This document shows, in pieces, positions 1 to 18,757 of a stretch of 64,000 nucleotides of DNA. A program made the translations under genes and the position numbers. Origin of the DNA: an uncultured Treponema sp. (lineage in GTDB: Bacteria > Spirochaetota > Spirochaetia > Treponematales > Treponemataceae); assembly GCA_947167745.1 (NCBI GenBank), contig CAMVJE010000007.1:1-64000 (forward strand), in the 5' to 3' direction. Each line of letters starts with the position of its first letter. Within the stretch, counting starts at the first letter, position 1. The notes below the pieces were generated by a model, which searched no databases, was not told the origin of the DNA, and was given only the letters and a program-made list of their open reading frames with translations.

Positions 1-2666
1 TTTGAGTTCTTTTTGAATGCTTCCCAGTCCGGGGCGAGTTCTTTTGAATATGGAACCTGAACGAGATAAATGTAGCTTCCGCTCTTTTTGAATGAGCCAG
101 ACTGAACATTTTTTGCCTCATCGTGAGCAACGGCGAATGAAACCAGAGTGTGAGGAACATTCAAATGCTCGAAAGTTCCGCTCATTGAGTCTTTTCCGCC
201 GATTGAAGCACAGCCCATTTCACGCTGGGCATCAACTGAACCCAAAAGGGCAGCGGCAGGATAGCCCCAGGTTTTTGCATCGACTGTGCGGCCGAAGAAT
301 TCCTGATAGCTCATGCGGCTTGTTGTTGCCTTGCCGCCGATACAGGTGATTTTTGCCAGAGAAGAAAGAATTGCTGTCTGAGCTCCGTGCCATGGAGACC
401 ACTGAGCCACGCGGGGGTCGTAGCCGTAAGACATAAGGCTGACAGTTGATGTTTCTCGTGGTGAGATGACAGGGATTTTTGCCGACATAGCACATTCCGG
501 AGTTCCCTGATATTTTCCGCCGAAGGGGAAGAGAACTGTGCTTGCACCGATTGAGCCGTCGAATCGTTCCTGAAGGCCACGCTGAGAACAACATGCCAAA
601 TCTTTGATATTTTCGATGAATGCGTCTTTAATCTGCTCTGCGCTTGGCTGCTCGCCGCCTGCCTCGCCGGTTGCGCTTGCACATTTTCCCAAAACTTTTG
701 CGACAGAATCAAGCGGCTTAACGAGCGGTGAATCATGCGGTTCTGCAGGAGATTCAATAGAAGCTTTTGCAACATGAACGGCACCAGCCGAATCAAGGAA
801 TGAGCGGTCAAGGTCAACGATTGTCTTTCCGCGCCATTTCATTGTGAGCTTGTTTTTGTCGGTTACGGTCGCAACAACGACAGCATTCAAGTTCTCGTCA
901 TTACAATATTTGATGAATTTATCTACATCGCCTTTGCGGACAACTACAGCCATTCGTTCCTGTGATTCAGAAATTGCAAGCTCTGTTCCGTTCAAGCCTT
1001 CGTATTTTTTGGGAACTGCGTCAAGATTGATGTCAAGTCCAGGGGCAAGCTCGCCAACGGCTACAGAAACACCGCCTGCACCAAAGTCGTTTGATCGGCG
1101 AATCATGTGGCTTACTTCAGGATTACGGAAAAGACGCTGGATTTTTCTCTCTTCAACGGCATTTCCCTTCTGAACTTCGGCAGCCGCCGTGGTCACTGAT
1201 TTTTCCGTGTGGACTTTTGAAGAGCCTGTAGCTCCACCGATACCGTCACGGCCAGTTCCGCCGCCAAGAAGAATGATGATGTCGCCTTCTTCGGGAGTCT
1301 CGCGCATTACGGTCTTGTAAGGAGAAGCCGCGATTACCGCACCTAATTCCATTCGTTTTGCAACAAAGCCAGGATGATAAACTTCTGTGACCTGGCCGGT
1401 AGTCAAGCCAATCTGGTTTCCGTAAGAAGAAAATCCCTGAGCTGCCTCACGACAAATCTTCATCTGAGGGAGTTTACCGTGCAAAGTCTCGCTCAAAGGA
1501 ACTGTTGGATCGGCCGCACCAGTTACGCGCATTGACTGATAAACCCAGCTTCGTCCTGAAAGAGGGTCACGGATTGCGCCACCGATACAAGTTGCAGCAC
1601 CACCGAAAGGCTCGATTTCTGTAGGGTGGTTGTGTGTTTCGTTTTTAAACTGAAGAAGCCACTGCTCGACTTCTTCTTTGCCTTCTGGAAGAGAATTTCC
1701 TTTTTCGTCAGTGGTGTAGTGAACATCGATGAAGATTGAGCAGGCGTTGTTTTCCTCGCTCACTTCCATGTCGTCCAGCATACCGTGCTTGCGCAGATAT
1801 TTTCCGCCGATTGTAGCCATATCCATGAGAGTGAGAGGCTTGTCCTTTCGTTTCGCATAGATGTCTGTGTGCATGGCCTCGTAATTTTTGAGGGATTCTT
1901 TGAAAAGTTTGGCGTAAGGGCCTTTTTCGATTTTGATGTCTTTAAGAACAGTGTTGAAAGTGGTGTGACGGCAGTGGTCGCTCCAGTAAGTGTCAAGAAC
2001 GCGGATTTCAGTTTCGGTCGGGTCGCGCTTGATAGACTTGAAATAATCCTGCAAGAACTGAATGTCGGCCAGGTCCATAGCAAGGCCCATCTTCTCGCGG
2101 TAAGCGTCAAGCTCTTTTTTGCCAAGAGAATTGAAACCTTCGACAGTCGGAATATCGGCAGGTACTTCAGTTTTCATTTCAAGGGTTTCAGGAATTTCAG
2201 CTTTTGCAAGGCGGGAATCGACAGGGTTAATAAGATACTTTTGAATTTTTGTGACTTCATCGGCAGAAACATTGCCGGAAAGGATGACCATTTTGGCACA
2301 TCGGACGCGCGGTGGCTCAGTTCCGACAGTGGCCGTGTTCTTCATAGACTCGCGAAGGAGCGAAAGACACTGTTCGGCACTATCCGCACGCTGGTCGTAC
2401 TGCCCTGGAAGATATTCCCAAATGATTACAGTGTCGCTAGGTTCGGTTTCAAGCGATGTGTAGACGACAGAATCGCTCTGAGGCTCAGAGAAGATTCGCA
2501 AAGCCGCCATCTTAGAGACATCTTCAGAAGTGTTCTCGATGTCATAGCGGTTAAAATAACGCACTCCCTTCACAGAAGAAATGCCCAAAAATCCATTGAT
2601 TTCACCCAAAATTGAGCTGGCCTCGCTCTGGAAGCCCGGCTTGCGCTCTACATAAATACGAAACAT
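1..2666 (-). CDS. purL: Phosphoribosylformylglycinamidine synthase, large form (partial, 3' end outside window)
   Basis: Catalyses the ATP- and glutamine-dependent conversion of FGAR to FGAM in de novo purine synthesis. About 888 residues are visible, starting at ATG 2664-2666 (MFRIYVERKPGF) and running off the left edge. The length and the motifs DTYWSDHCRHTTF, FKNETHNHPTEIEPFGGAATCIGG and FGAGGVSVAVGELAPG fit the large single-chain PurL of gram-negatives and many anaerobes; the C-terminal glutaminase domain would lie outside. No internal stop was seen. The 5' part recurs twice in this window as broken copies (7180-8204 and 18144-18654). Bases 1822-2513 look identical by eye to 7287-7978. 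A long open frame on the opposite strand (1785-2615) is a coding shadow. The product is near certain; the C-terminal architecture is inferred. Confidence 0.95.
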   Translation of the reverse strand, partial: MFRIYVERKPGFQSEASSILGEINGFLGISSVKGVRYFNRYDIENTSEDVSKMAALRIFSEPQSDSVVYTSLETEPSDTVIIWEYLPGQYDQRADSAEQCLSLLRESMKNTATVGTEPPRVRCAKMVILSGNVSADEVTKIQKYLINPVDSRLAKAEIPETLEMKTEVPADIPTVEGFNSLGKKELDAYREKMGLAMDLADIQFLQDYFKSIKRDPTETEIRVLDTYWSDHCRHTTFNTVLKDIKIEKGPYAKLFKESLKNYEAMHTDIYAKRKDKPLTLMDMATIGGKYLRKHGMLDDMEVSEENNACSIFIDVHYTTDEKGNSLPEGKEEVEQWLLQFKNETHNHPTEIEPFGGAATCIGGAIRDPLSGRSWVYQSMRVTGAADPTVPLSETLHGKLPQMKICREAAQGFSSYGNQIGLTTGQVTEVYHPGFVAKRMELGAVIAASPYKTVMRETPEEGDIIILLGGGTGRDGIGGATGSSKVHTEKSVTTAAAEVQKGNAVEERKIQRLFRNPEVSHMIRRSNDFGAGGVSVAVGELAPGLDINLDAVPKKYEGLNGTELAISESQERMAVVVRKGDVDKFIKYCNDENLNAVVVATVTDKNKLTMKWRGKTIVDLDRSFLDSAGAVHVAKASIESPAEPHDSPLVKPLDSVAKVLGKCASATGEAGGEQPSAEQIKDAFIENIKDLACCSQRGLQERFDGSIGASTVLFPFGGKYQGTPECAMSAKIPVISPRETSTVSLMSYGYDPRVAQWSPWHGAQTAILSSLAKITCIGGKATTSRMSYQEFFGRTVDAKTWGYPAAALLGSVDAQREMGCASIGGKDSMSGTFEHLNVPHTLVSFAVAHDEAKNVQSGSFKKSGSYIYLVQVPYSKELAPDWEAFKKNS

Positions 2667-2726
2667 GGGAATATTATAACGATATGAAAGGAAAGTTGAA
2701 AGATGAAAAGTAAGAGCGATGATTTC

Positions 2727-3092
2727 TTAATATTGTTTATTTACATCTAATGCAAGTTTATGTATCATTTCAATAATCGTTTGTCTTGTCGAAAGAGATA
2801 AAGTTTCTAAGTCCTCGTAAACATTCCAATATTTTAATACAACAGATTCTTTTTTCATTGTTTTTGAGATTTCGGATAGTTCAGAGTTAGAAGAAAAATC
2901 TTCATCGAGTAAATTTTCAAGGGGAAAATTAAGGACTTTTGAAATGCGAAGCGCCGTGTTTGCCGCGGGAATTGAATCACGCTCTAGCCCCGCCCCTATC
3001 ACTGCATATTTTATTCCGGCTCGCTGTGCCAAATCTTTTCTTGTAAGCCCTAAATAAATTCTTCTGTCCTCAACATTCTTCCAAAATCCCAT
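2727..3092 (-). CDS. Xre-family helix-turn-helix transcriptional regulator
   Basis: 121 aa. Residues about 8-62 form an HTH_3/Cro-CI domain (DRRIYLGLTRKDLAQRAGI, then a recognition-helix-like stretch and LRISKVLNFPLENLL). The remaining half is acidic and helical with no recognised domain. It is divergent from the accessory genes that begin at 3241. The intergenic region carries three copies of a 9-bp motif, one over its own start codon, which suggests autoregulation and control of the neighbour. No clear Shine-Dalgarno sequence precedes ATG 3090-3092. It could be the repressor of accessory block A; its ligand or signal is unknown. Confidence 0.8.
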   Translation of the reverse strand: MGFWKNVEDRRIYLGLTRKDLAQRAGIKYAVIGAGLERDSIPAANTALRISKVLNFPLENLLDEDFSSNSELSEISKTMKKESVVLKYWNVYEDLETLSLSTRQTIIEMIHKLALDVNKQY

Positions 3093-3166
3093 ACTAATTT
3101 TTTACAACAATTAGTATATTTTGTTGTGTTTTTATAATTATTGGTATAATATATAGCAATTAGTAT
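3091..3166. promoter_or_regulatory. Divergent promoter with repeated AATTAGTAT operator candidates
   Basis: The motif AATTAGTAT occurs at 3109-3117 and 3158-3166, and in inverted form (ATACTAATT) at 3091-3099. The last two of these positions form a dyad over the start codon of the Xre gene (inverted copy plus 3109-3117). A weaker copy lies around 3137-3147. For the rightward genes, TTGTTG (3121-3126) and TATAAT (3145-3150), 18 bp apart, make a plausible sigma-70-type promoter lying between the motifs. Repressor binding there could silence both directions. Motifs are seen directly; function is inferred. Confidence 0.5.
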
Positions 3167-3240
3167 TTTGTGTGATTTTTGTAAAGAAAAATCTCGATAC
3201 AAAATGAATCAGCTTTCAGCGATATGAAGGATAATTTTTT

Positions 3241-4083
3241 ATGAAAAAGAAATTAACATCTATCATTATATTTCTTTTATTTTGCACGCTGTTCAATCTC
3301 TTTGCGGAAGAACCGCCAATCAAAAGCGGTAGCTGGCAGTGGAGTGATGGAATTACTCTAAATGGTAAAAAATTCTTTGATGTTGCAAAATCTTACAAAG
3401 AGCAAGACGGCTGGGCATATATTGAGGGTATGGGAAAACTTCATTATTGGCTTTATGACACATACGCATACCATAATGGGCACAAGGAAAAAATTGTAGA
3501 CAAATATGTACCTGCATGGATTGAATCAATGGGATATGTCATTGATTTTGACCACATGCGCAGAGTCAGTCCGAACAAAGATTTGGCATCTTCTGTAAAG
3601 GCTCTGATGAAACAGAGAGGTTGCGATGTGAGTGTGTTGTTTAGTACATCAAATCCTTCTACACCTTATGTCGTCATCAACGAGTATGACAAGGATAAAG
3701 ATTCGTATGGAACGGATATTATTCCGTTGTTCAAACAAAAAAAAGTCGAGCAAAAGAAACAAACGAAAAAAGTCACAACAAATCCTAAGTCAAACTCTGG
3801 AAACAGGACGAATTTTGCGCAAGAACTTTATAGATTAAGACACAAAACACATGAAATATCACGTATAGGAGGACACGGTGACATTAAAACTTTTAGGTGG
3901 AGATATATTTACCGGGATGACGGCAGAATGATAAACGAATATATTGTCGATTTGGACGGAAATATTAGAAGCAGTATTTCTCGGATAGGTAGGGACCACG
4001 ATTTTAATGAAATGTACCCGCTGGTTCAGTATTACTCCGTTCCAAAAGAAATTCGTGAACTTGCGATGAAATCTTTGGAATAG
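3241..4083 (+). CDS. Hypothetical exported protein
   Basis: 280 aa, not recognised. A clear Sec signal peptide (MKKKLTSIIIFLLFCTLFNLFAEE, cleavage near residue 22) predicts a periplasmic or surface location. The mature part is Trp/Tyr rich at first, with a lysine-rich linker near residues 165-185 (KQKKVEQKKQTKK) separating two halves, then a C-terminal half with alternating polar/aromatic residues suggestive of beta structure. An AAGGA-type ribosome site lies about 9 bases before the ATG. It is the first gene of a co-directional run (3241-5845) behind the putative Xre-controlled promoter. No function can be assigned. Confidence 0.75.
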   Translation: MKKKLTSIIIFLLFCTLFNLFAEEPPIKSGSWQWSDGITLNGKKFFDVAKSYKEQDGWAYIEGMGKLHYWLYDTYAYHNGHKEKIVDKYVPAWIESMGYVIDFDHMRRVSPNKDLASSVKALMKQRGCDVSVLFSTSNPSTPYVVINEYDKDKDSYGTDIIPLFKQKKVEQKKQTKKVTTNPKSNSGNRTNFAQELYRLRHKTHEISRIGGHGDIKTFRWRYIYRDDGRMINEYIVDLDGNIRSSISRIGRDHDFNEMYPLVQYYSVPKEIRELAMKSLE

Positions 4084-4112
4084 AATTATTTGTAACAAAC
4101 AATGAGGTTTAT

Positions 4113-4421
4113 ATGAAAACTGATTACAGAATTATGGACTTGCTAAATCGCTATCATTTGTATCTTTATACTCTTGGCTATTCAATAAAATCTGTAAAAG
4201 ATAACCATTGTTCAATTACAGACTATGTAAACGCTGTTGAAGAAATTGCAGGATTGGAAGACAAAACGGTAGAAGAACTTGCTTCTGATATAGATAAAAT
4301 TTTCCAACAATATGATAAAGGTGGTGAAAAAAATCATTTGATTTCACAGGATAACAACAACAGAACATTGAATGGACTGGAGCATTTCAAAGAATTTGTT
4401 TCAGCCTGTAATAAAATCTAA
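4113..4421 (+). CDS. Small protein resembling a stand-alone tyrosine-recombinase core-binding (SAM-like) domain
   Basis: 102 aa, preceded by an AGG-type ribosome site 29 bp after the previous gene. The pattern RYHLYLYTLGYSIKSVKDNH followed later by RTLNGLEHFKEFV resembles the N-terminal core-binding domain of phage-type integrases. There is no catalytic Arg/His/Tyr domain after it, so it cannot act as a recombinase alone. Its stop TAA (4419-4421) overlaps the Shine-Dalgarno sequence of the next gene. It could be an accessory DNA-binding protein or simply a helical hypothetical protein; the family resemblance is by eye and weak. Confidence 0.55.
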   Translation: MKTDYRIMDLLNRYHLYLYTLGYSIKSVKDNHCSITDYVNAVEEIAGLEDKTVEELASDIDKIFQQYDKGGEKNHLISQDNNNRTLNGLEHFKEFVSACNKI

Positions 4422-4431
4422 GGAGAACTTT

Positions 4432-4845
4432 ATAAAAAAGAGAATTATATTAATTGTAATTTTACTATGGACTGAAATGGTATTATCGGCTCTCTCTAGT
4501 TGGGATGAGATGAAATGGTACGGTTCAGGCTGGGCTCATGCCGACTATCTAGGAATGAAATATGAATTAATAAGCGGTAAGGAATGGAAAAAGAACGGCT
4601 ATAATTATTGGAAAAGTCATGGATATAAACTTAGCGATTGCCAAAAACTATCGAAGCAAGAGTCCTCACTAGTTTGGGCGGCTTTAGACGAATATGAACT
4701 AGAAGATGATGAAGTATACGCTGTATATGTTACATTAGAGCAAAATGTGACACATTTTTTAAATCTTTATGTTATCATTAAAAACAATGGCAATAATGTT
4801 GATTGGGAAGGGTTTTATATCGATATGGGGAGTCGTATAAAATGA
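4432..4845 (+). CDS. Hypothetical exported protein with apparent AUA start codon
   Basis: 137 aa if started at ATA 4432-4434. An in-frame ATG at 4372 would overlap the previous gene by 50 bp and put 20 unrelated residues before the signal peptide. The ATA is preceded by a good AAGGAG (4420-4425) at 6-nt spacing, and reading begins KKRIILIVILLWTEMVLSAL, a typical signal peptide. The mature part is acidic and Trp/Tyr rich. Its stop overlaps the next start (ATGA, 4842-4845), so the two are translationally coupled. Function unknown. The start is either a true AUA or a recently mutated ATG. Confidence 0.6.
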   Translation: MKKRIILIVILLWTEMVLSALSSWDEMKWYGSGWAHADYLGMKYELISGKEWKKNGYNYWKSHGYKLSDCQKLSKQESSLVWAALDEYELEDDEVYAVYVTLEQNVTHFLNLYVIIKNNGNNVDWEGFYIDMGSRIK

Positions 4846-5369
4846 AAAATATTAAAATCGTTATGATTGTGCTACTTGCACTTATATTGTCCGCTTCAAT
4901 TCATGCGCAAGATTTTTCATCAAAAACAATTTATCGAAGTAGTGTGTTCGGTCAGAGTTTTGAACTTGTGGAATACAGCGATGAAAACAAATGCCGACTC
5001 TTGCTTTGTATGGCAGATAATAAAAACACAAATAAATCCGGCGTAACATTCTATGATTCCTCTCTGCCTACGGTATATTTTATTTGGTCAAAATGGTTTA
5101 CAAATCCAAGCGAGTATTCAAAAGCAATAGAAGAAACTAAAGTGTTTTTTGATAAAAGTATGGTTTTGATTTACCTTGCGGACATAAAAGATATTTGCGA
5201 CATTGCGCCTTGTTGTACATCAATTCATTACGGAATATCAGAATCGCACAGCAAGGAAAAATATATTCACATAGAATATGATTGCTCTGACTTGGATTTG
5301 CTGTTTGAAATTGCAGGATTCTACAACAAAAACGGTCGTGATTATGTCTTGGAGCATTACGCTAAATAA
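4842..5369 (+). CDS. Hypothetical exported protein
   Basis: 175 aa with a signal peptide MKNIKIVMIVLLALILSASI ending in HAQ (cleavage near residue 23). The start ATG 4842 overlaps the preceding stop; an in-frame ATG at 4803 would precede the signal peptide with 13 extra residues and is less likely. The mature protein contains several cysteines (CRLLLC, CDIAPCCTS), unusual for an exported protein unless disulfide bonded. No domain recognised. It belongs to the same run of small exported unknowns in accessory block A. Confidence 0.65.
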   Translation: MKNIKIVMIVLLALILSASIHAQDFSSKTIYRSSVFGQSFELVEYSDENKCRLLLCMADNKNTNKSGVTFYDSSLPTVYFIWSKWFTNPSEYSKAIEETKVFFDKSMVLIYLADIKDICDIAPCCTSIHYGISESHSKEKYIHIEYDCSDLDLLFEIAGFYNKNGRDYVLEHYAK

Positions 5370-5392
5370 AATATTTTCACAGGGATAAAATA

Positions 5393-5845
5393 ATGAAACA
5401 AACATCACCAATCTTGCGTATTTTTCTAACCGTCGTCCTTCTCGCATTGGTTTTCGTAGGCATTGCGTTGACGGTCATCACGGCGGGCGGAAGGCTTGGG
5501 GCATTAATCGACTTGCCGACGACAGGCGGTTTTGTTCTTATCTGCGTTCCGATTCTTTTTCTTTCTGGTCGGGCATGGGATTTTGTTCGGGCAATTTGCA
5601 TAGCGTTCGGCTCGGAAGCAGACGATTCGGAGCGAAAAGCGGCGGAAAAATCATGCTCTTTTTTGTGTGCGGTCGTTTCGCTTTCTGCGGCTTTTATGTT
5701 TGTCATCAACATCATCGGTATGCTGAACAATCTGAGCGACACGGAATCAATCGGCGCGAACATCGCGGTCGCCCTGCTTCCCGTGTGCCATGCGCTTGTC
5801 ATTGATTTGTTATTGCTGACGATAAAAGCGCGGGTGAAAAAATAG
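5393..5845 (+). CDS. Small integral membrane protein, weakly MotA/TolQ-like at its N-terminus
   Basis: 150 aa with four likely membrane segments (about residues 8-30, 42-60, 92-112 and 120-142). The stretch GGRLGALIDLPTTGGFVLIC resembles the N-terminal membrane region of MotA-like stator proteins (GG..xxFIDxPSxxxV), but the cytoplasmic loop and channel helices are too short for a real MotA. Base composition is clearly more GC rich than in the AT-rich genes just upstream, suggesting a different origin. The start ATG 5393 lies 23 bp after the previous stop. Function unknown. Confidence 0.6.
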   Translation: MKQTSPILRIFLTVVLLALVFVGIALTVITAGGRLGALIDLPTTGGFVLICVPILFLSGRAWDFVRAICIAFGSEADDSERKAAEKSCSFLCAVVSLSAAFMFVINIIGMLNNLSDTESIGANIAVALLPVCHALVIDLLLLTIKARVKK

Positions 5846-5910
5846 CGACAAAATTTGTTGATTTGTCGGCATTTTTTGTCAAACGATTTCATCGGCTAGG
5901 GATAGGAGCA

Positions 5911-6062
5911 CCGCGCGAAGCGCGTTCTGGAGTGAGGGAGCGAAGCGACCGAACGGAAGAATGAAGCGCGGTTAGCGCGGAAGTCACGAGAACGGCAATG
6001 CCGTTCTCGGTACGAGTTTGCAATCGGCAAACTCGCGAAAGCCCGACCCCACGCCAGTGGGG
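5911..6062. repeat. Intergenic array of short palindromes
   Basis: Six or so hairpin-forming words follow each other: GCGC-GAA-GCGC (around 5914-5923), GCGAAGC (around 5940), a GCGCGG/CCGCGC-type dyad (5966-5980), GAGAACGGC/GCCGTTCTC (5988-5996 with 6000-6008), CGAGTTTGC/GCAAACTCG (6013-6021 with 6027-6035) and CCCCAC/GTGGGG (6047-6052 with 6057-6062). No open reading frame is supported. The same style of array occurs at 7060-7150, 22233-22311, 36505-36595 and 51410-51497. The gap 5846-5910 holds nothing else recognised. Confidence 0.75.
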
Positions 6063-6070
6063 AAGCCGCC

Positions 6071-6877
6071 TTATCTTTCCGCAAGCAGATTTCGTCCTTC
6101 CACATTTTCCAAAACACGCATCTGCTGTATCGCAATCTTGTTGAGTTTTTCAAGCCGCTCGCTTTGGGGCAAGCCGTCATTGATGAACACCGCATTCAGA
6201 TTTTCCATATTAGAAAGGCAAATCAGCTGGTTTATCGTGGCGTAGTCGCGGATATTTCCCTTTAAGTCAGGATTTGCTTCTCGCCATTCGTGTGCCGTCA
6301 TGCCGAACATAGCCGTGTTCAGCAAGTCTGCTTCGTCAGCGTAGACGAAAGATTTTTGCTGTGGCGTGAGTTCAGGCGGAATAAGGTTCTGCTTTATTGC
6401 GTCGGTGTGGATTCGGTAGTTGATTTTGGCAAGCTCCCGCTTTGCGCTCCAACCAAGTTGGGCTTGCTCGGCTTCTTTTAGCCGCTGATATTCCTTGACG
6501 AGCAGAAGTTGGAATCTTGGGCTAATCCACATTCCGAAGTGATAGGCGATGTCACGGTGGGCGTAAGTGCCGCCGTACCGCCCCGCCTTTGACACGATTC
6601 CGATTGCGGCAGTGCGCTCAATCCAAGTCTTGACCGAAAGCACGAAGTTGTTGCTTCCCGCCACATTTTTAATTGCACCGAATTCGGTACAATTAAAATC
6701 GGGATTGTAGAGCATTTCCCATTCGCCGAGATATTCAATCGTACTTTTAAGGCTGAGCCAGCGGAAAATGATATGCTCCTGTAACTGACTTCTCGCCATA
6801 TCCGTCAAGGAAATAAAATCGTCCTCGTTTTGATGAATTACCGTAATTTCCGTGTTTTCAACCGTGATTTTCGCCAT
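6071..6877 (-). CDS. KilA-N domain protein
   Basis: 268 aa. Residues about 10-115 match the KilA-N fold typical of phages and mobile elements (DFISLTDMARS near the start, then WERTAAIGIV-type core and the GRYGGTYAHRDIAYHFGMWI motif with FQLLLVKEYQRLKE). The C-terminal half (LGWSAKRELAKINYRIHTDA) is the helical extension often seen in chromosomal KilA-N proteins. The start ATG has a GGAG site upstream. It stands alone between two palindrome arrays at the end of accessory block A and supports a mobile or phage-derived origin for the block. The function is presumably DNA binding; the target is unknown. Confidence 0.85.
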   Translation of the reverse strand: MAKITVENTEITVIHQNEDDFISLTDMARSQLQEHIIFRWLSLKSTIEYLGEWEMLYNPDFNCTEFGAIKNVAGSNNFVLSVKTWIERTAAIGIVSKAGRYGGTYAHRDIAYHFGMWISPRFQLLLVKEYQRLKEAEQAQLGWSAKRELAKINYRIHTDAIKQNLIPPELTPQQKSFVYADEADLLNTAMFGMTAHEWREANPDLKGNIRDYATINQLICLSNMENLNAVFINDGLPQSERLEKLNKIAIQQMRVLENVEGRNLLAER

Positions 6878-7159
6878 TGCTCGCTCCGTAAGATTTGGTT
6901 TAGATACGATTTTAATATATTAAAAGTTTTTATTTTCGGAAAGATGATTTTTTGTTTGAGAGGAATTTCTAAGGAGTGGGCGGGCAAACAAAAAAAAATT
7001 GTTTTTAAGCGTTTAAAGCGTTTTGATTTGAACAAGATGCTTTATAAGCCAAGCGTTAAGGATTGTAGGGCGGCGTAGCCGTTGCCGTAGGCAATGGAGC
7101 GCGAGAGCGCGGAACCCCGAAAAGCCTGACCCGAACGAAGTGAGGGGAACGTCCTAAAA
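6878..7159. repeat. Gap with a palindrome array (7060-7150)
   Basis: AT-rich DNA with no supported gene at 6878-7055. It is followed by short dyads at about 7060-7150, including GCCGTTGCCGTAGGCAA, GCGCGAGAGCGC and GAACGAAGTGAGGGGAAC. This is the same class as the array at 5911-6062. The array abuts the left end of the second purL copy. Confidence 0.55.
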
Positions 7160-7179
7160 AATTTATGCAACTTTTGTCG

Positions 7180-8204: not shown

Positions 8205-8283
8205 AAGGGTATTTTACTGTTTTTTACGGTTTATTGGAAGATAAGGAAGTTGAAAACGGAAAGTGGAAAGCTTTTCCCATCTC

Positions 8284-10611: not shown

Positions 10612-10644
10612 GGAAGTGAGTATAGCACATCAGCAAAAATTGTG

Positions 10645-10663
10645 TTCGGGAAAAATTCCCGAA
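10645..10663. repeat. 18-bp palindrome, left copy flanking mobile mystery A/B
   Basis: TTCGGGAAAAATTCCCGA is a near-perfect palindrome, found again at 11872-11889. The two copies bracket the mobile mystery gene pair (10690-11721). They could be transcription terminators, operators or module borders. Confidence 0.55.
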
Positions 10664-10689
10664 TCTGGCTGCCCTCGAATATGAAGGTT

Positions 10690-11277: not shown

Positions 11278-11280
11278 AGG

Positions 11281-11721
11281 CTAATCCCATATTCTTTTAG
11301 TGTTGCCGTTTATAAAATCTGCAGCCATATCGTTAACAGCTTCTTTGGTCTGAATATCCTGATTTTCCAAAGCCATATTCAGATTTACGCCAAGAAGAAT
11401 TTCTTCGGCTTTTTTCTTAGCCTGAATTTGAACAATATCCTGAAAAGTTGTTTTTGGCTTGAAGTAATATACAAAATCGCAGTTCATGGCTTGGGCGACT
11501 TTCTTCATTGTAGACAGCTTCAAGTTTTCTTCATTTATTTCCATTTTTGCAATTCGCGGCTGTGTAACGCCGAGCCGTTTTGCAAGCTGAACGGCGGTCA
11601 TCCCGATTGCCTCTCGGACGGTGTTTATCCAGCTGACGCCTTTGGGAACGATGTTTTTAGCATCTGACAGAGAGGAAGTTTTTTTGTCCAAAGCTCTAAT
11701 CTGCATTATTCTTGTGTTCAT
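11281..11721 (-). CDS. HTH protein, mobile mystery protein A family
   Basis: 146 aa. A central Xre-type HTH (GMTAVQLAKRLGVTQPRIAKME, about residues 37-58) is followed by a helical tail. The N-terminal ALDKKTSSLSDAKNIVPKGVSWINTVREA and the genetic pairing with the Fic protein fit mobile mystery protein A. It is likely the antidote or repressor of the pair, by analogy with HTH/Fic modules. The promoter region upstream carries a 15-bp inverted repeat (11725-11739 with 11823-11837). Confidence 0.88.
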   Translation of the reverse strand: MNTRIMQIRALDKKTSSLSDAKNIVPKGVSWINTVREAIGMTAVQLAKRLGVTQPRIAKMEINEENLKLSTMKKVAQAMNCDFVYYFKPKTTFQDIVQIQAKKKAEEILLGVNLNMALENQDIQTKEAVNDMAADFINGNTKRIWD

Positions 11722-11724
11722 ATT

Positions 11725-11837
11725 ATAACCTATAAGTAATTTATTTTATTAAATTATATAATGTTTTTATTATATTTGTAAAGTTATATATAATCTATAT
11801 ATTATATCGGAAAGTAAATTTATTACCTTTAGGTTAT
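11725..11837. promoter_or_regulatory. Divergent AT-rich region with inverted operator candidates
   Basis: ATAACCTATAAGTAA (11725-11739) is nearly the reverse complement of TTACCTTTAGGTTAT (11823-11837), with two mismatches. The very AT-rich DNA between them contains several TATAAT-like hexamers. It lies upstream of mystery protein A and before the rightward gene at 11984. It is a candidate binding site pair for the mystery A HTH protein. Confidence 0.4.
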
Positions 11838-11871
11838 GTTTGTTTTTTGTGTGTGATATGGATTTTATATT

Positions 11872-11889
11872 TTCGGGAAAAATTCCCGA
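11872..11889. repeat. 18-bp palindrome, right copy flanking mobile mystery A/B
   Basis: Second copy of TTCGGGAAAAATTCCCGA, identical over 18 bp to the one starting at 10645. It lies just beyond the promoter region of the mystery A/B operon. Confidence 0.55.
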
Positions 11890-11983
11890 CCTACTGCGGG
11901 AAAATTACTCATGACAGCTCAAAATGCGGGAAGTAAAATTGCTCAATAACACCGTATTGTACTTTTACTGCGAGGAGAAAATT

Positions 11984-12652
11984 GTGCCTGAAAATATTGA
12001 AAAAGAACAGAATTTACAAAGAATTTTCATTGATTTTACAATTTTGCTGAATGAACGCTTTTCTCAAATCGGCAAGAAGCTTGATTCCATTTCAGAAGAC
12101 ACAATACGCTATCTTTTCTTTTATGCTTGTACTCAAAACGGAATAAAACCTAACGAAATTACATTAGAAGAAAAAGGAAATTTCGATTGTGCAGGAAGTG
12201 AAGAACTAGAACTTGATATGCACATCGAAAAAAATGCGATAATTCCATCTATTGCCGCTGAATTCAAGTATCACAGACAAGAAGGCTCTACTCCAGAGAA
12301 ATTTGACTGGGCAGGAAATTTAATCAGAGATTTCAATCGCCTGAAAAAATCTAAACGTGGAGAAAAAAGACTTTCCATTTATATCGCAAGTCCTCAAATG
12401 CAAGCTAAATACAAAGAGAGGAAGGATTGGGGTTCATTTATGAATGAACTTATGTCTTTTCCAGAAGGAGAAAAAAGGAATTTCTCTTTGCCAGAAGGGG
12501 TAAGCACAACATTCAAGGAAAAGACCAAATTGGCTAAAAATTCGACAGAATATTTTACTGAAACAGATATTGTCTGTCGTTTTAGCAAAGAACTCGCCAG
12601 CGGTAACAATGACGAAGAAAAGTTCGCCTTGCGAATCTTTGAAATATTATAA
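11984..12652 (+). CDS. Hypothetical protein, possible PD-(D/E)XK nuclease-like fold
   Basis: 222 aa from GTG 11984, chosen because GAGGAG lies 6 nt upstream; an in-frame ATG at 11924 lacks a ribosome site. The segment ELELDMHI followed by PSIAAEFKYHR has the Asp ... Glu-x-Lys arrangement of PD-(D/E)XK nucleases, and the helical N-terminus (IFIDFTILLNERF) is compatible with that fold. Homology is not established. It precedes the zinc-finger/LRR gene by 38 bp on the same strand and may share its transcript. Alternative: a fold with no nuclease activity. Confidence 0.6.
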   Translation: MPENIEKEQNLQRIFIDFTILLNERFSQIGKKLDSISEDTIRYLFFYACTQNGIKPNEITLEEKGNFDCAGSEELELDMHIEKNAIIPSIAAEFKYHRQEGSTPEKFDWAGNLIRDFNRLKKSKRGEKRLSIYIASPQMQAKYKERKDWGSFMNELMSFPEGEKRNFSLPEGVSTTFKEKTKLAKNSTEYFTETDIVCRFSKELASGNNDEEKFALRIFEIL

Positions 12653-12690
12653 TAAATTTTTGGAAATAACCGAAAGAAGGAGAAAAATAT

Positions 12691-15630
12691 ATGGCAATTT
12701 TAGTATGCGAGAATTGTGGCAGAAGATTTTCTGATAGCACAAAATATTGGACAAGCAATGGTCGGGATTTTTGTTGTGAAGCTTGTGTTGATGAATTTAA
12801 TCATAAGCAGGAAATGAGAAAAGAGGAAATAAAAGCCTCTTGGCATACCTGTGCGTATTGTGGGGAAAAAATTGATCCAAACGACGGTTGGCTAGAAACC
12901 TTTCAAAATGGTAAATGGTATCACGGAAAATGCTGGGAAGATGTAAAAAACACATGTACTTGTAAAAACTGCGGAAAAAAATACATTCAAGATCCTGTAA
13001 ACGGTATTTTTGATGATTTCTGTAGCTCTGAATGTAGAAAAGAATACACAAAAAAACAGGAAGAAGAAGCTGCTGCAAAAGAGAAAGCCGAGGAAGAACG
13101 AAAAGCAAAAGAAGAGTTGGAAGCACGCCGAAAGAAGCGACAGAATGCAATGGCAAAATGTGTTGAAATTGATGGCGCATACTACAGTCCTGACAAAACA
13201 ACGCTTGTCGGTGTAAATGAAACTGTTCGCCGGTTTACAGTTTTAGACGGCGTTGTTGAAATTGCCGAAGACGCCTGTTTTGAATGTAAAGACTTAAAAT
13301 CAATTACACTGCCAAATACTCTTGAGGAAATTGGAGAACATGCATTTCAAGAGTGTACATCGCTTTCTTCTATCACCATTCCTAAAAGTATAAAAAAAAT
13401 TGGTAAAGGTGCTTTTTTTAAATGCGAATCCATTGAACAAGCTGTATTTGAAGAAGGTGTAGCGACAATTGGCGAACATGCATTTCAGGCGTGTACATCA
13501 CTTTCTTCCGTAAATATTCCAGGAAGTGTAAAAGAGATTGGAAAAGCTGCATTTGCAATATGTGAATCACTTGAGAAAGTTGTAATTGAAGATGGTGTAA
13601 AGGCAATCAGCGAATATGCTTTTCACGGCTGTAAGTCGTTAAAAGAAATTACCTTTCCAAAATCAGTAACAACACTCAAAAGCTATGCCCTTTCAAAAAC
13701 AGGATTTACTTCGTTTGAAATTCCAGACTCAATCACAGAACTTGGCGAATATGCCTTCTGGAAATGTGAAAATTTGAAATCTGTATCTATTCCTAACAGC
13801 ATAAAAACAGCAGGAGAATGCATTTTTGCTGAATGTAAAGCTTTGGAATCTGTTGATATAGCCGAAGGTGTAAGCGAACTTTGGGAACATATGTTCACAA
13901 AATGTACAGGATTAAAATCTATAAAAATTCCACAATCTGTTACTACGATTAAAGAATATGCACTTTCAAAAACAGGTTTTGACTCTTTTGAAATTCCTGA
14001 GACAATCACCGAACTTGGAAATGGTGTTTTCTGGAAATGCGAAAGTTTAAGTTCTGTGTCTATTCCTAACAGTATCAAAACTTTTGGTGAATCTGTTTTC
14101 TCTAAATGCCCGTCTTTGAAGAGTGTAAATATAGCCGAAGGGGTAAAATCTCTTGGAAAAGAGACATTCTCTGAATGTACCGCGTTGGAAACAATTAATT
14201 TACCGGAAGGAATAACAGAGCTTGCAGGAAAACTGTTTTATGAATGTAAGAAACTTAAATCAGTAAAGATCCCAAACTCAGTTACAAAAATCGGAGATGC
14301 ATTTGAATACTGCGAATCGATTACTTCTGTCGATGATATACTCTTAAAGATTGAGGAATTGGGAGAAAGAGCTTTCAATGGGACTGGAATCACAGAATTA
14401 ACAATCCCTGCAAACATTAAAAAAATCGGTGACCTTGCGTTCCAAAATTGTAAGTCATTGAAGAAAGTTTCCATCGCAGAAGGAATAACAGAATTAGGCA
14501 TACATTTTCTTTCGTGCTGTAACGCTCTTTCAGATGTTAAGCTTCCATCAAGCATAAAGGAACTTCAAAAAGGAACGTTTAACCGTTGTTACTCTTTGAC
14601 TTCTATAAATATTCCGCAGGGAGTAGCAAAAATCAATGAGGCATTCTGCGACTGTATTTCCTTAAAATCTATATCTTTGCCACAAAACATTAAAGAAATA
14701 AATAGCAGCTTTAACATGTGCTTTTCTTTGCAATCTGCAAGCGTTAGTGGAAAAACAGAAATAAAGAATTCATTTGGCGGCTGTTTTTCTTTACGAAAGA
14801 TTCCTGTTACCGGAGGCGGATATAAGGACAACTCTAAATACAATCCAGAAAAAGCAAAAGAAGCATTCAACAATGCGTTGGAATTTGCAGGAGATGATAA
14901 CTTAAAACTATCGTTCGGCAATAGTAAAGGTTCTTTTAATTTCTCTTCAGCTTCTTCCATCTTAGACAGAGGCTTTTGGGCAAATTGGAGCAATACGAAA
15001 AAGATTGGTTTCATAATTCTCAATCTCTTCACTTATTTTATTCCGCTTATTCTTGTGCTTATTTGCCGCAAAGTACCGTTCAAGGTTCTCTGGCAGAAAA
15101 AATGGTTCAAGATTGCAACAGCTGCAGTTGGGGCAGTTCTGGTAATCTGTATCGCGAACAATGCGATTCAAAATCATAAGTCACAGAAAGCCTATGAGCG
15201 AAGTTTTGAAAAATGGCGAATCTATGAAGGTGATAAAAAGCCGTTCACAAACGCTTACCGCAGATTCGCGCTTTCTGAAAATGAGCTTCGCCTTGTTAGA
15301 ATTGACGTGCTTTCTGACGAAAAGCTTAAAAGCGAAACAGATTCTCTTAAACGCTCCCATGACAGCACCCCAAGAAAATTTGTTCCGCTGAACAAAGAAA
15401 TAAAATCTTGGCTTATGGAAAATCTTGAAGGTCTTTTTCCTGCCGATTCAAAATCCATAGTAAAAATTCAGCTAGATGATTCTGAGGGTGAAATCAGCAA
15501 AGCTAAAGCAGAAAAAGAAAAAATCGCGAATCCAAGAGGTATCTTTACCATTACAACAACAAGCGACGGAAAGATAAAGGATATTGCGGATAAAACAGGC
15601 TTAGGTTTTTATGACTATAGAATAAAATAA
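12691..15630 (+). CDS. Zinc-finger, BspA-type leucine-rich repeat protein with C-terminal membrane anchor
   Basis: 979 aa, with no signal peptide. Three treble-clef-like cysteine clusters come first (C6/C9/C28-29/C32; C54/C57/H78/C81; C91/C94/C111/C115). A charged coiled coil (about 118-155) follows, then roughly 23 LRR_5 repeats of the Treponema TpLRR/BspA kind (residues about 170-715, pattern GxxAFxxCxSLxxVxIPxSV). Two membrane segments (about 785-810 and 822-845) precede a 120-residue C-terminal domain. Usual BspA proteins are exported; this one should display its repeats in the cytoplasm. About 273 bp are duplicated internally (around 13687 and 13960). A good AAGGAG precedes the start, and a terminator follows at 15647. 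Confidence 0.88.
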   Translation: MAILVCENCGRRFSDSTKYWTSNGRDFCCEACVDEFNHKQEMRKEEIKASWHTCAYCGEKIDPNDGWLETFQNGKWYHGKCWEDVKNTCTCKNCGKKYIQDPVNGIFDDFCSSECRKEYTKKQEEEAAAKEKAEEERKAKEELEARRKKRQNAMAKCVEIDGAYYSPDKTTLVGVNETVRRFTVLDGVVEIAEDACFECKDLKSITLPNTLEEIGEHAFQECTSLSSITIPKSIKKIGKGAFFKCESIEQAVFEEGVATIGEHAFQACTSLSSVNIPGSVKEIGKAAFAICESLEKVVIEDGVKAISEYAFHGCKSLKEITFPKSVTTLKSYALSKTGFTSFEIPDSITELGEYAFWKCENLKSVSIPNSIKTAGECIFAECKALESVDIAEGVSELWEHMFTKCTGLKSIKIPQSVTTIKEYALSKTGFDSFEIPETITELGNGVFWKCESLSSVSIPNSIKTFGESVFSKCPSLKSVNIAEGVKSLGKETFSECTALETINLPEGITELAGKLFYECKKLKSVKIPNSVTKIGDAFEYCESITSVDDILLKIEELGERAFNGTGITELTIPANIKKIGDLAFQNCKSLKKVSIAEGITELGIHFLSCCNALSDVKLPSSIKELQKGTFNRCYSLTSINIPQGVAKINEAFCDCISLKSISLPQNIKEINSSFNMCFSLQSASVSGKTEIKNSFGGCFSLRKIPVTGGGYKDNSKYNPEKAKEAFNNALEFAGDDNLKLSFGNSKGSFNFSSASSILDRGFWANWSNTKKIGFIILNLFTYFIPLILVLICRKVPFKVLWQKKWFKIATAAVGAVLVICIANNAIQNHKSQKAYERSFEKWRIYEGDKKPFTNAYRRFALSENELRLVRIDVLSDEKLKSETDSLKRSHDSTPRKFVPLNKEIKSWLMENLEGLFPADSKSIVKIQLDDSEGEISKAKAEKEKIANPRGIFTITTTSDGKIKDIADKTGLGFYDYRIK

Positions 15631-15646
15631 GACCAAGCATCACATT

Positions 15647-15691
15647 CGGCAGAATTTCCCATTTTCGGAAAATTCTGCCGTTATTTTTTTT
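15647..15691 (+). terminator. Rho-independent terminator after the LRR gene
   Basis: CGGCAGAATTT (15647-15657) pairs with AAATTCTGCCG (15670-15680) and is followed by a run of Ts to 15691. It separates the LRR gene from the zinc-ribbon/SPFH operon that starts at 15710, unless read-through occurs. Confidence 0.85.
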
Positions 15692-15709
15692 CAATAAAGG
15701 ATCAACAAT

Positions 15710-16600
15710 ATGCCAGAAACTCGTCAGCAAGAATTCGTCGGAAAAATCAAAAAATGCCCTAATTGTGGGCAACCTTTTCAGAGCTTTAAGATAAAATGTC
15801 CTTCATGCGGATTTGAGTTCTCTGGAATTGAAGCAGTAAAGTCAGTAAAAGATTTCTTTTATGTTTATCAAAGGGAAAATAACAAATGGCAGAGGCTTGA
15901 ACTCATAAAGAATTTTCCTGTTCCGAATTCAAAAGAAGATATTCTTGAATTCGCTATTCTCGCAAGTCAGCAGACAAAATCGCTCGCAAATTCTCAAAGC
16001 TCAAAACTGAACTTACAAAACTATATGATGAGCACATTGAATGAACAGGGCGGCATTCTTGGAGCATATAAGAATGTTTTTACAGGAAATCAAAATCAGA
16101 ATAAAGTAAGCCAGGAAGATTTTTACATCGCATGGAAAAATAAGCTTGAGCAGATTCGGTTAAAAGCGGAACTTGCATTCGCCAACGACAAGGAAGATTT
16201 TGAGCAGCTTTCAAAAATAATCTCCGAAGCATTTGAGTCGGTAAATAATCTTCAAAAAAAGCAGAAAGCTACAAAAAAGAAAATCATAATCATGTCCGTT
16301 ATTTCTTTGATTTTAATCGTCGCATTCGCTCTTGCACCTATTGTCTTTTTGAAAAAAACAGGCCAGTTGGATTTTACCCCACGAGAAACTGAAAATACCC
16401 GTCTTGAAAATCTTATGACAGAAATTCAGTCAGAAATAGAAGCGGGGGAATATGATTCAGCGGAACTAAAACTCATGGATTTACGCTGGAAAGAGGGGGC
16501 TTCTGACAATAAATATTACCAGACTGAAAGGGAAATATGGAATTCCAAGCGGGAATTACTTCAAAAACAGATAGACTCAAAACGAAGAGGTGGCAAATAA
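15710..16600 (+). CDS. Zinc-ribbon membrane protein next to SPFH protein (YdjG/YdjH-like role)
   Basis: 296 aa. N-terminal zinc ribbon (C16/C19/C30/C33: KCPNCGQPF, KCPSCGFEF), then a helical region rich in Gln/Asn, a single membrane segment at about 192-215 (IIIMSVISLILIVAFALAPIVF) and a C-terminal domain. No signal peptide, so the ribbon faces the cytoplasm. Its stop overlaps the SPFH start (TAATG). Zinc-ribbon membrane proteins beside an SPFH protein occur in the B. subtilis pspA-ydjGHI operon, which handles membrane stress; that analogy is inference, and no PspA is seen here. Confidence 0.75.
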   Translation: MPETRQQEFVGKIKKCPNCGQPFQSFKIKCPSCGFEFSGIEAVKSVKDFFYVYQRENNKWQRLELIKNFPVPNSKEDILEFAILASQQTKSLANSQSSKLNLQNYMMSTLNEQGGILGAYKNVFTGNQNQNKVSQEDFYIAWKNKLEQIRLKAELAFANDKEDFEQLSKIISEAFESVNNLQKKQKATKKKIIIMSVISLILIVAFALAPIVFLKKTGQLDFTPRETENTRLENLMTEIQSEIEAGEYDSAELKLMDLRWKEGASDNKYYQTEREIWNSKRELLQKQIDSKRRGGK

Positions 16601-17763
16601 TGGGAATCTTCAAAAATAAAAAAGAAGGCGGTTTGATGGATGTCATCCGCTGTGATGAAAAAGATTATTTGATTTGGAAATGGCGACCTGATGCTGACGG
16701 AGCGGAAAATCTTTCCAAAAAAGAAAATGCGATCCGCTACGGTTCCTCTTTACGCGTAAAAGATGGTGAGGTTGCTGTTTTCGTTTATGCACAAAAAGAC
16801 GGAAAAATGCAGGATTTTATTGAAGGCCCCTTTGACGATACGATTAAGACTGCGAATTTTCCGGTTCTTTCTTCGATTGTAGGTCTTGCTTTCGGCGGAT
16901 CATCCCCTTTTCAGGCAGAAATTTACTTCATCAACCTTGCAAAAATAAATCAAGTTCAGTTCGGAGTTCCGTACTTTGATGTGGCAGACCCGCGATTTAT
17001 GGATTTCGCAGTTCCTGTCGCAGTCCGAGGGGTGATTAACTTCAAGATTACCGATTACAAAGAATTTATAAAACTTCACAGGCTTGTTGAATTCAATCTT
17101 CAAGATTTTCAGACTCAGATTCGCTCCGCAGTCAAAAGATATGTAAAAGAACTTGTTACAAATATTCCGAGCGAAAAAGGGCTTCCTGTGATTCAGCTTG
17201 AACGAAAAATCCGCGAGATTAACGAAGGCGTAAACCAGCTTGTAAAACCACGGTTTCAAAATGATTTCGGAGTTAGCGTAACTGAAGTTGATATTTCAGA
17301 AATTGAGATTGATAAAACAAGCGACGGCTATCAAAAACTCATGACCGTTACACAAAACGTAACTATGCAGACCACTTTAGCTCAGGCAGCTGTAAACATC
17401 AAACAGATGCAGGACATGCAGAGAGTTCAAATCGAAGAAATGCAGCGCGCTCAGAGATTACAGACTGAAAGCGCAAATATTTCGGCTCATCAGCTTAATC
17501 AGCAGACAGCGGTTGGAATTGCAAATGCAGAAGCATTCGGCAAAATGGGCGCGAACGGTGGCGGACAAATAAATATCGCAGGAAACGGATTCAACCCAGC
17601 CGGAATGATGGTCGGACTTTCGCTCGGAACTGTAATCGGTCAGAATATGGCAGGAATGATGAGCGGAATTCTTGGAGGAGCAGCGGCAGAAAACAAAGTT
17701 CCGCAAAGTCAGCAGACACAGACTTCTGAACCACCAGTTAAACCTGAACAGCCGGAAAAATAA
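16600..17763 (+). CDS. SPFH/Band-7 domain protein (YdjI / virion-core-protein-like)
   Basis: 387 aa from ATG 16600, which overlaps the previous stop (TAATG). An upstream in-frame ATG at 16537 lies inside the preceding gene. Residues about 20-260 form the SPFH domain (GEVAVFVYAQKDGKMQDFIEGP, PVAVRGVINFKITDYKEF, FGVSVTEVDISEIEID). A Gln-rich helical region (MQDMQRVQIEEMQRAQR) and a Gly/Met-rich tail follow. This subgroup is annotated as virion core protein family. Such proteins oligomerise on membranes as scaffolds; here it likely assembles with the zinc-ribbon protein upstream and the small membrane protein downstream. Confidence 0.9.
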   Translation: MGIFKNKKEGGLMDVIRCDEKDYLIWKWRPDADGAENLSKKENAIRYGSSLRVKDGEVAVFVYAQKDGKMQDFIEGPFDDTIKTANFPVLSSIVGLAFGGSSPFQAEIYFINLAKINQVQFGVPYFDVADPRFMDFAVPVAVRGVINFKITDYKEFIKLHRLVEFNLQDFQTQIRSAVKRYVKELVTNIPSEKGLPVIQLERKIREINEGVNQLVKPRFQNDFGVSVTEVDISEIEIDKTSDGYQKLMTVTQNVTMQTTLAQAAVNIKQMQDMQRVQIEEMQRAQRLQTESANISAHQLNQQTAVGIANAEAFGKMGANGGGQINIAGNGFNPAGMMVGLSLGTVIGQNMAGMMSGILGGAAAENKVPQSQQTQTSEPPVKPEQPEK

Positions 17764-17783
17764 AACTTGTATAGAGGTGTCAG

Positions 17784-18107
17784 ATGAAAATCAACTATTT
17801 TTTACTTTTTATAGCATTTGCAATTTCAGCCCTGATCGGCTACGGCTTTTGGGCAGGAACAGAAAATCTTTATCTCGTAATTGGCTCAACTTTTGTGTCG
17901 TTTATAACGCTTTCTGGAATTCTTGCAGTTTCTTTCGGTCGGGGAAGCGGCAATCTAAAAGCTCTTTCAGTGTGCTTTTTTGCATTCAGTCTTATCGAAC
18001 ATCTGATTTTCGCATTTGCCGGATACCGACAAGCACCATATATAATCATCACAGGAATTTTGATTCTGGTGTACGCGATGATTTTTTACCTCGTCGCAAA
18101 AAATTAG
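17784..18107 (+). CDS. Small four-helix membrane protein of the SPFH operon
   Basis: 107 aa with four predicted membrane helices (about residues 4-24, 28-50, 58-80 and 85-104). AGAGGTG lies upstream of the start, 20 bp after the SPFH stop. Not recognised. Position and direction make it the third gene of the zinc-ribbon/SPFH operon. It ends 36 bp before the third purL fragment, so it closes accessory block B. Confidence 0.7.
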   Translation: MKINYFLLFIAFAISALIGYGFWAGTENLYLVIGSTFVSFITLSGILAVSFGRGSGNLKALSVCFFAFSLIEHLIFAFAGYRQAPYIIITGILILVYAMIFYLVAKN

Positions 18108-18143
18108 GATAAAGCCTGTTCCTAAAAAGTGGTCAGCCCCAGA

Positions 18144-18654
18144 TGCCACCGATACAAGTCGCCGCACCGCCGAAAGGCTCGATTTCTGTAGGATGATTGT
18201 GTGTTTCGTTTTTGAACTGCAAGAGCCACTGCTCGGTTTCTTCTTTGCCCTCTGGGAGAGGCTTGTCCTTTCGTTTCGCATAGATATCAGTGTGCATTGC
18301 CTTGTAATTTTTGAGGGATTCCTTAAACCTCAAATGGCAGTGGTCGCTCCAGTAAGTGTCGAGGACTCGGATTTCAGTCTCGGTCGGGTCGCGCCCCACT
18401 TACTTGAAGTAATCCTGCAAGAACTGAATGTCAGCTAAGTCCATCGCCAAGCCCATTTTCTCGCGGTAAGAGTCGAGTTCCTTTTTATTGAAGCCGATGA
18501 AACCAGTGACGGTCGGAATGTCAGCGGGGTCGGTTTCAAGCTCCGTGTAGACGACAGAATCGCTCTGCGGCTCAGAGAAAATCCGCGTAGCCGCCCCCTT
18601 CGACACATCTTCGCTCTGGAAGCCGTCTTTGCGCTCTACATAAATACGAAACAT
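18144..18654 (-). pseudogene. Third, internally deleted copy of the purL 5' region
   Basis: Starts at ATG 18652-18654 with MFRIYVERKDGFQSE and reads into purL codons as far as EIEPFGGAATCIGG. Compared with the intact gene it has lost about five internal pieces: after QSE, between ELETDP and ADIPTV, after SDHC, after KDKPL, plus a stop after LQDYFK with a frame change. Many base substitutions show that it is older than copy 2. It shares with copy 2 the junction TTCGACACATCTTCGCTCT and the upstream word TTTATTGGAAGATAA, which the intact gene lacks. It is not translatable as PurL. Confidence 0.9.
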
Positions 18655-18757
18655 TTTTATATTGCAGTGATTTGCAGACTTTATTGGAAGATAAAAATAT
18701 TTAGTGGAGTTTATTCAAATCTGTCTGTATAATACTTATATTTCGGGAGTTTTATTT

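Follow-up and report, generated by a model that had tools for sequence, protein, structure and literature searches.

Truncated copies of housekeeping genes beside accessory gene blocks point to integrase-free gene gain in gut and rumen Treponema

The 64,000-nucleotide stretch of an uncultured Treponema sp. considered here (GCA_947167745.1, contig CAMVJE010000007.1, positions 1 to 64,000; hereafter the window) begins with the gene purL, followed by two truncated copies of it, termed ghosts, that are separated from purL and from each other by blocks of accessory genes, or cargo. Ghosts also occur in related genomes, at purL and at two further genes, nifJ and a metH-like gene, and many of their broken ends lie beside a folded repeat of ~100 bp designated E2. 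Ghosts beside cargo blocks, often with this folded element, point to integrase-free gene gain in gut and rumen Treponema. The process we favor, and regard as probable by a modest degree, is that DNA carrying a gene fragment and cargo, often together with E2, integrates by homologous recombination at purL, nifJ, and the metH-like gene. The main observations are (i) ghost arrays on both sides of purL, (ii) an empty site, (iii) cargo that is colinear with the gene end across species, (iv) decay with distance from the intact gene, (v) a single nifJ breakpoint beside E2 in six cassettes, and (vi) a mosaic purL. The survey covered 21 related genomes other than that of the window, and a scan of species genomes yielded 75 purL loci. 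Open reading frame (ORF) lists are mechanical calls by scripts, cargo functions are family matches alone, and nt denotes a position counted within the gene. A full-length purL protein from the relatives (L001) is a phosphoribosylformylglycinamidine synthase (TIGR01857).

The visible purL, amounting to the 5′ two thirds of the gene, occupies positions 1–2666 on the minus strand, where 888 codons are open from the ATG at 2666 without a stop and run off the window edge. A preliminary description of this DNA had called the region intact, which is valid for the visible part, as the window ends within the gene; its account of two broken copies in the same orientation, with the same start codon and different 3′ ends, is borne out. 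Both ghosts lie on the minus strand and begin at the same ATG as the visible gene. Ghost 2 (7176–8204) extends to nt 956 by BLAST and is made up of nt 1–86 and nt 142–956, with 128 palindrome-rich bp (7991–8118, minus strand) in place of the 55 bp between these pieces. Its longer piece is identical to the visible purL at 805 of 815 bases and runs for ~690 bp without a mismatch. Ghost 3 (18145–18654), which adjoins the ancestral neighbor of purL, reaches nt 1089 with four internal deletions and shares 83.7% identity with the visible gene over 510 aligned bases. Among those listed, the repeats of at least 40 bp in the first 24 kb are the purL copies and one within an LRR gene; the length and identity of the purL copies exclude chance.

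Each ghost is preceded by promoter-type sequence on the minus strand that resembles the purL upstream region of another genome. The 45 bp 5′ of ghost 2 (8205–8249) match those of G03 at 45 of 45 bases, and the 45 bp 5′ of ghost 3 (18655–18699) match those of an empty-site genome, G15, at 42 of 45; for the visible purL, 22–28 of the 45 upstream bases match in seven relatives. A tree of the purL 5′ parts, of the kind proposed earlier as a check, places ghost 2 as sister to the window's own gene and groups ghost 3 with two G06 sequences, a topology read without inspection of support values. Ghost 3 looks like the remnant of an older resident purL and is read as the oldest ghost of the window. Palindromic insertions are present in purL and nifJ ghosts and missing from the intact genes compared, and some are common to several cassettes (window 7991–8118; L195 ~17520–17660); an element inside a 5′ ghost of G006 resembles the 128-bp replacement in ghost 2. 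Such short insertions may lower recombination between ghost and gene.

The empty site is found in three relatives (L011, L037, and L041), in which the purL start adjoins a chemoreceptor gene and hisG, the two genes found past ghost 3 in the window. The window's chemoreceptor gene (Peripla_BP and MCPsignal domains; 18704–21223, plus strand) is the ancestral neighbor of purL. The adjacency that the preliminary description had proposed to look for where the islands are missing does exist in these relatives. In L041, purL is directly followed by a thioredoxin-like (Trx) gene, assigned via Pfam on its G011 homolog, and by two CorC-like genes assigned by eye, which suggests an ancestral order of hisG–chemoreceptor–purL–Trx–CorC–CorC. 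Elsewhere the chemoreceptor gene and purL lie 3.3 kb apart with other DNA in between (L069), or another gene is found at that position (L004).

A mirror image of the window array is carried on a single 283-kb contig of Treponema sp. RGIG4806 (G011). Its order is chemoreceptor, intact purL, cargo A, 3′ ghost 1, cargo B, 3′ ghost 2, cargo C, Trx, CorC, and CorC. Ghost 1 spans 1.5 kb from about codon 832 to the gene end, while ghost 2 consists of two pieces from the last ~100 codons. Cargo B, behind ghost 1, is colinear with the DNA directly 3′ of the intact purL of another species, G004, at 99.6% identity over the first 1065 bp and then at 94% and 96%. The core flanks of the two genomes are 77–84% identical on the hisG side and 69–76% on the Trx/CorC side, and this difference from the 94–99.6% of cargo B indicates recent movement of cargo between species. 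The ghost 1 fragment, colinear in both genomes, is closer to the G004 purL (92.3% identity) than to that of G011 itself (89.1%). The drop in identity on crossing the purL stop, from 99.6% to 92.3%, implies either a later purL exchange in one genome or a different source for the fragment.

Among the 21 genomes, a purL 5′ ghost was found in one, G006 (any match in 20 and 19 of 21), and extra 3′ copies in four (any match in 18 of 21): G004 (28 residues only), G006, G011 (two), and G014. In G011, G004, and G006, the cargo between purL and a purL ghost differs from that of the window, as the preliminary description had asked of other strains; neither a three-copy layout that is the same everywhere nor a clustering of the copies with distant taxa was encountered. 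The neighbors of purL differ on both sides in many genomes. The idea that purL is itself a jumping gene was rejected, as hisG neighbors vary too and general fluidity of gene order explains the pattern as well. In several species, a small-gene module (DUF7723, DUF4160, and in part Xre) recurs 3′ of purL or of one of its ghosts, or next to Trx (L040 15049–16277, L194, L007, L008, and L243); its G14 and G17 versions share 97% identity over 882 bp. Three contigs (L072, L073, and L074) end at one common point ~135 bp into purL, as if the assembly had branched at the purL start.

These arrays bear on another alternative, namely that purL was duplicated locally in tandem and unrelated DNA inserted afterward, or else that the layout is an assembly artefact. 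The mismatch-free stretch between ghost 2 and the visible gene is what such an origin would give, and the relatives are metagenome-assembled genomes (MAGs). Against it, ghost 3 groups with the G06 alleles rather than with the purL of the window, several independent assemblies contain arrays, and cargo beside purL is common to different species; this explanation is considered very improbable.

Ghosts are not confined to purL. Self-comparison of three contigs (283, 220, and 210 kb) returned, besides purL, several repeats that are near-tandem or 66–67% identical, a repeat of 123 bp between ORFs of lipoprotein type, and a single nifJ case of the same design as purL, in which a nifJ 3′ piece on the G011 contig is separated from nifJ by restriction-modification-like genes (named by eye). 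Extra partial nifJ copies are present in G002, G004, G011, and G019 (query, C-terminal 399 residues; any match in 12 of 21). In G004, nifJ, a pyruvate:ferredoxin oxidoreductase gene (TIGR02176), stands at the end of contig C50, and nifJ 3′ ghosts lie on contig C29, whose start has a tandem repeat in common with the C50 end; the two contigs are presumably joined there. The four ghosts of G004 lose integrity with distance, the first being nearly whole over ~680 bp, the second interrupted, the third fragmented, and the last reduced to 53 bp beside a purD-like gene. The metH-like gene encodes homocysteine methyltransferase, pterin, and B12 domains by Pfam and scores under the NCBIfam metH cut-off. 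A 3′ ghost of it in G005 is 92.4% identical and accompanied by E2, with PIN and Xre genes in between, and another partial copy occurs in G006 (18 of 21 genomes matching at 1e-60). As a control, gltB was searched with its C-terminal 499 residues; none of the 19 matching genomes showed a ghost, and additional hits were pieces of one gene or contig ends. In G008, for example, one gene is divided between two contig ends, which share an overlap of 476 bp at 97.5% identity.

The E2 copy of the window (7053–7153, plus strand; HMM E-value 5.3e-9) has its GGGGAACG end at a distance of 22 bp from where ghost 2 breaks off. A weak E2-like palindromic repeat lies beside the KilA-N gene (5893–6069, plus strand, start set by eye), with an HMM match at 6030–6069 (E-value 0.0043). 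A strict E2 pattern detects 65 copies in 14 of the 21 genomes, and its reversed control none. The 283-kb G011 contig has three HMM matches, and each stops no more than 30 bp from a ghost, twice of purL and once of nifJ. When the right flanks of 24 copies, a set that includes copies fetched for purL's sake, were compared with all fetched DNA, eight ran into a purL, nifJ, or metH-like ghost, among them the window copy at 7123. Of ten further copies fetched from G002, five were examined; three of these lead straight into nifJ fragments and two do not. The small G004 purL ghost adjoins an E2 copy whose end differs slightly. Since array units copy one junction, the independent E2 junctions are few, about five by our count.

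Comparison of the copies suggests that E2 folds. The comparison used 34 distinct two-ended elements, 31 of them cellular and 3 viral, whose outer stems are partly dictated by the search pattern. The inner 4-bp stem, which lies outside the pattern, forms four Watson–Crick pairs at one fixed offset in 29 of the 31 cellular elements, in eight matched types, and in none of the three viral ones. Shuffling the right halves 2000 times gave a mean of 7.7 fully paired elements and a maximum of 16, which is a guide and not a probability because near-copies are related. The inner stem thus covaries. Folding energy alone is weak evidence, with z-scores of −4.1 and −2.9 for two of six copies folded as DNA and −0.8 to +0.5 for the other four. 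In seven of 12 genomes compared (L287–L293), the intact metH-like gene also carries E2-like DNA, in frame, within a linker; four (G012, G014, G018, and G021) have a linker without it, and G017 has another insert there. On the idea of E2 as a phage feature, an IMG/VR scan showed it in five contigs. An Rfam structured RNA family was rejected, with no match above the gathering threshold in the copies searched: the best hit over window 5840–7200 was TD-2 at the weak copy (24 bits against a gathering score of 48.7), and no match covered the E2 of L003, L237, or L252.

Could E2 instead be an attachment site for a recombinase coded elsewhere, with the incoming element bringing a replacement gene end? 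Site-specific integration of this kind would be in keeping with the conserved pairing in E2 and with its constant polarity, the GGGGAACGCC end facing the ghost at the junctions read. Pfam, however, detects no recombinase in the cargo scanned, which comprised 17 window cargo proteins (plus the chemoreceptor) and, from G011 and L040 together, 20 cargo proteins that represent part of the ORFs in the G011 blocks. An integron integrase (TIGR02249) scores above cut-off in four of the 21 genomes (G003, G016, G017, and G019) and not in G002, G004, G005, or G011, which all have E2-flanked ghosts. The Y1_Tnp transposase occurs in seven of the 21, including G002 and G006, and is missing from G004, G005, and G011, for which reason an assignment of E2 to REP/RAYT elements was rejected. 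An integron attC site was tentatively rejected as well, E2 being folded and polar and yet by eye unlike the integron-type sequence beside intI in G003. The integron integrases lie near contig ends (G003:C59, G016:C82, G017:C10, and G019:C371), with integron-like sequence after intI in G003.

The nifJ cassettes speak further to this point. In six of them, three in G004 and three in G002, nifJ is broken at one point immediately following E2 (two deviate slightly), and the six have in common an 18-bp net insertion that is missing from the three intact nifJ genes compared (G002, G004, and G011). Ghost DNA on the E2 side therefore belongs to the incoming unit, which is expected with a crossover deeper in the fragment and not with a recombinase cut at the E2 border, where the newest ghost should equal the resident gene. 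An exchange of this form is also visible in one G002 nifJ ghost, whose last ~100 aligned bases and downstream DNA are nearly identical to those of the intact G004 gene, as expected from a crossover inside the fragment. Site-specific integration at E2 is accordingly judged quite unlikely. The earlier argument that short integrase att sites would not yield such copies holds up equally, the repeats being 0.5–1.5 kb long and truncated on one side.

A stronger competitor, though still an unlikely one, is one-off homology-facilitated illegitimate recombination of linear foreign DNA, in which one end recombines in a core gene and the other is joined randomly or at a break-prone palindrome; there would be no reusable cassette, and E2 would be a fragile spot. 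The same anatomy has been proposed for the type VI secretion system (T6SS) immunity arrays of Vibrio cholerae (PMC5361080). Variation among purL breakpoints (nt 956, 1089, ~905, 2495, and ~3727) and the unequal identities of the G011 ghost 1 fragment and its cargo to G004 fit this explanation. What argues against it is that junctions are reused or inherited, namely the nifJ breakpoint in six cassettes of two species and a purL breakpoint beside E2 that is common to G011 and G004.

Exchange of the anchor gene itself can be read from fourfold-degenerate sites. Between G14 and nine genomes (window, G01–G05, G11, G15, and G17), these sites are 24–35% identical in hisG and 72–78% in purL, and G16 shows a similar pattern. 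For the close pair G06–G11, the order is inverted, with 86% in hisG and 50% in purL, and the nearest neighbor of purL shifts along the gene. The comparison suggests that purL is itself common property across species. The contigs carrying purL in G014 and G016 could be misbinned, which can account for the G14 and G16 values and not for the G06–G11 pair or the mosaic.

In the favored process, accessory genes would arrive on DNA that also includes part of purL, nifJ, or the metH-like gene, all of them long and conserved housekeeping genes, with E2 at the broken end of the fragment at many junctions. A homologous crossover inside the common fragment would insert the cargo beside the resident gene and rebuild one complete copy, while a truncated one would end up beyond the cargo; the truncated copy would retain its natural 5′ end, as in the window, or its natural 3′ end, as in G011 and G004. 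Repeated events would stack blocks, with the newest beside the intact gene and older ghosts displaced outward and decaying. The crossover would presumably be single, by way of a circle or a sister-chromatid form, and catalyzed by RecA; the DNA would presumably enter through natural transformation, and E2 would recur as the end of the unit. A ComEC-family protein is encoded in 18 of the 21 genomes. Any active role of E2 is likewise presumed. The preliminary description had seen the 5′ end of purL as a repeated recombination target, which is supported and too narrow, given the 3′ ghosts, the nifJ and metH-like cases, and E2 at the edges. Its single-crossover insertion of DNA bearing gene pieces remains the best reading, with circle and donor both presumed.

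Several points weigh on the other side and keep this reading no more than modestly probable. The identity step at G011 ghost 1, where fragment and cargo B were not kept together unchanged, lowers our confidence slightly. When strict E2 copies were chosen purely by E2 position, four of the 17 run into a ghost (three nifJ and one metH-like) and 13 into no recognized ghost, though a few flanks of the latter match other fetched DNA; conversely, window ghost 3 and both G006 purL ghosts have edges without E2. At fourfold-degenerate sites, the close pair G04–G17 is no more alike in purL (69%) than in hisG (74%) or aspC (85%), the G014 and G016 purL may be misbinned, and the varying neighbors of hisG indicate a general fluidity of gene order. 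Every relative with a ghost is a MAG, the G014 purL 3′ copy extends to a contig end, and a search of the isolate T. berlinense (G009) found no purL or nifJ ghost. A more ambitious proposal, possible yet doubtful, is an undescribed class of integrase-free mobile cassettes in gut Treponema in which a core-gene fragment serves as an address label for defense and toxin–antitoxin-like cargo, E2 defines the unit end and acts in formation or integration, and the purL, nifJ, and metH-like labels constitute separate time-ordered arrays.

The cargo of the window consists of unrelated accessory genes, as first described, and Pfam confirms Xre, KilA-N, response regulator, histidine kinase, Fic, LRR_5, and SPFH members. 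Block 1 (2667–7044) contains an Xre gene (2727–3092), secreted or unknown ORFs (3241–5369), a membrane ORF (5393–5845), and a KilA-N gene (6071–6877) whose product matches PADLOC PDC-S22 (1.4e-128); a search of the block against plasmids gave no match. Block 2 (8284–18107) encodes a membrane ORF, a response regulator, a histidine kinase, a Fic protein resembling PADLOC PDC-S04, an Xre protein, an unknown, an LRR_5 protein, a zinc-ribbon-like protein, an SPFH protein, and a further unknown. A membrane ORF with a histidine kinase and a response regulator occurs in both purL arrays (window 8284–10611; L149 6367–8470), the two sets being only distantly alike. Outside the blocks, a glycine riboswitch (40779–40875) lies 5′ of an amino-acid symporter-like gene (40953–42431, named by eye), and the CorC locus of G002 holds a drum RNA (RF02958; 60.5 bits, gathering 43; L237 12626–12743).

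Several known systems share part of this anatomy. Islands that integrate at gene ends via an integrase, as at icd, tRNA genes, and rlmH, leave the gene complete and displace its old end. The Treponema arrays are alike in both respects and differ in their repeats of 0.5–1.5 kb and in the lack of an integrase in the scanned cargo; the recombinase gene and the short direct repeats at both ends that mark integrase-borne islands, integrative and conjugative elements, and prophages are not seen. Integron arrays likewise line up accessory genes serially with a folded element at the unit end, the differences being those of E2 sequence and integrase distribution given above. The in-frame E2-like DNA of the metH-like linker recalls the palindromic elements of Rickettsia in its placement.

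The closest described process appears to be the way in which V. cholerae T6SS effector genes are displaced (PMC5361080), where a conserved part of a gene anchors incoming DNA, old parts are displaced outward in series, and arrays built by successive events then spread by homologous recombination; Rhs orphan arrays are cited alongside. As in such displacement arrays, one gene is whole, the window's being visible in part, and truncated homologous ends follow outward. In arrays of that kind the far join would be non-homologous; here E2 stands at many joins, and there is no undisturbed donor in which microhomology could be read. The V. cholerae anchor belongs to a toxin system and its displaced parts are useful as immunity genes, whereas the Treponema anchors are metabolic enzymes whose ghosts look useless; the Treponema arrays also differ in their unrelated cargo, 5′ as well as 3′ ghosts, and folded element. 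For Streptococcus pneumoniae, PMC3784515 describes transformation-born merodiploids in which a repeat and its flank recombine at a second place to give an intact and an altered gene copy; these are large tandem duplications without new cargo, unlike the arrays here. No paper in the literature searched joins Treponema, purL, and genomic islands.

Ghost arrays offer a record, layered in time and open to reading, of how gut bacteria that are mostly uncultured have gained genes. They suggest how defense and toxin–antitoxin-like genes spread between species without an integrase, and the mechanism would explain how a housekeeping gene can be far closer between species than its neighbors are.

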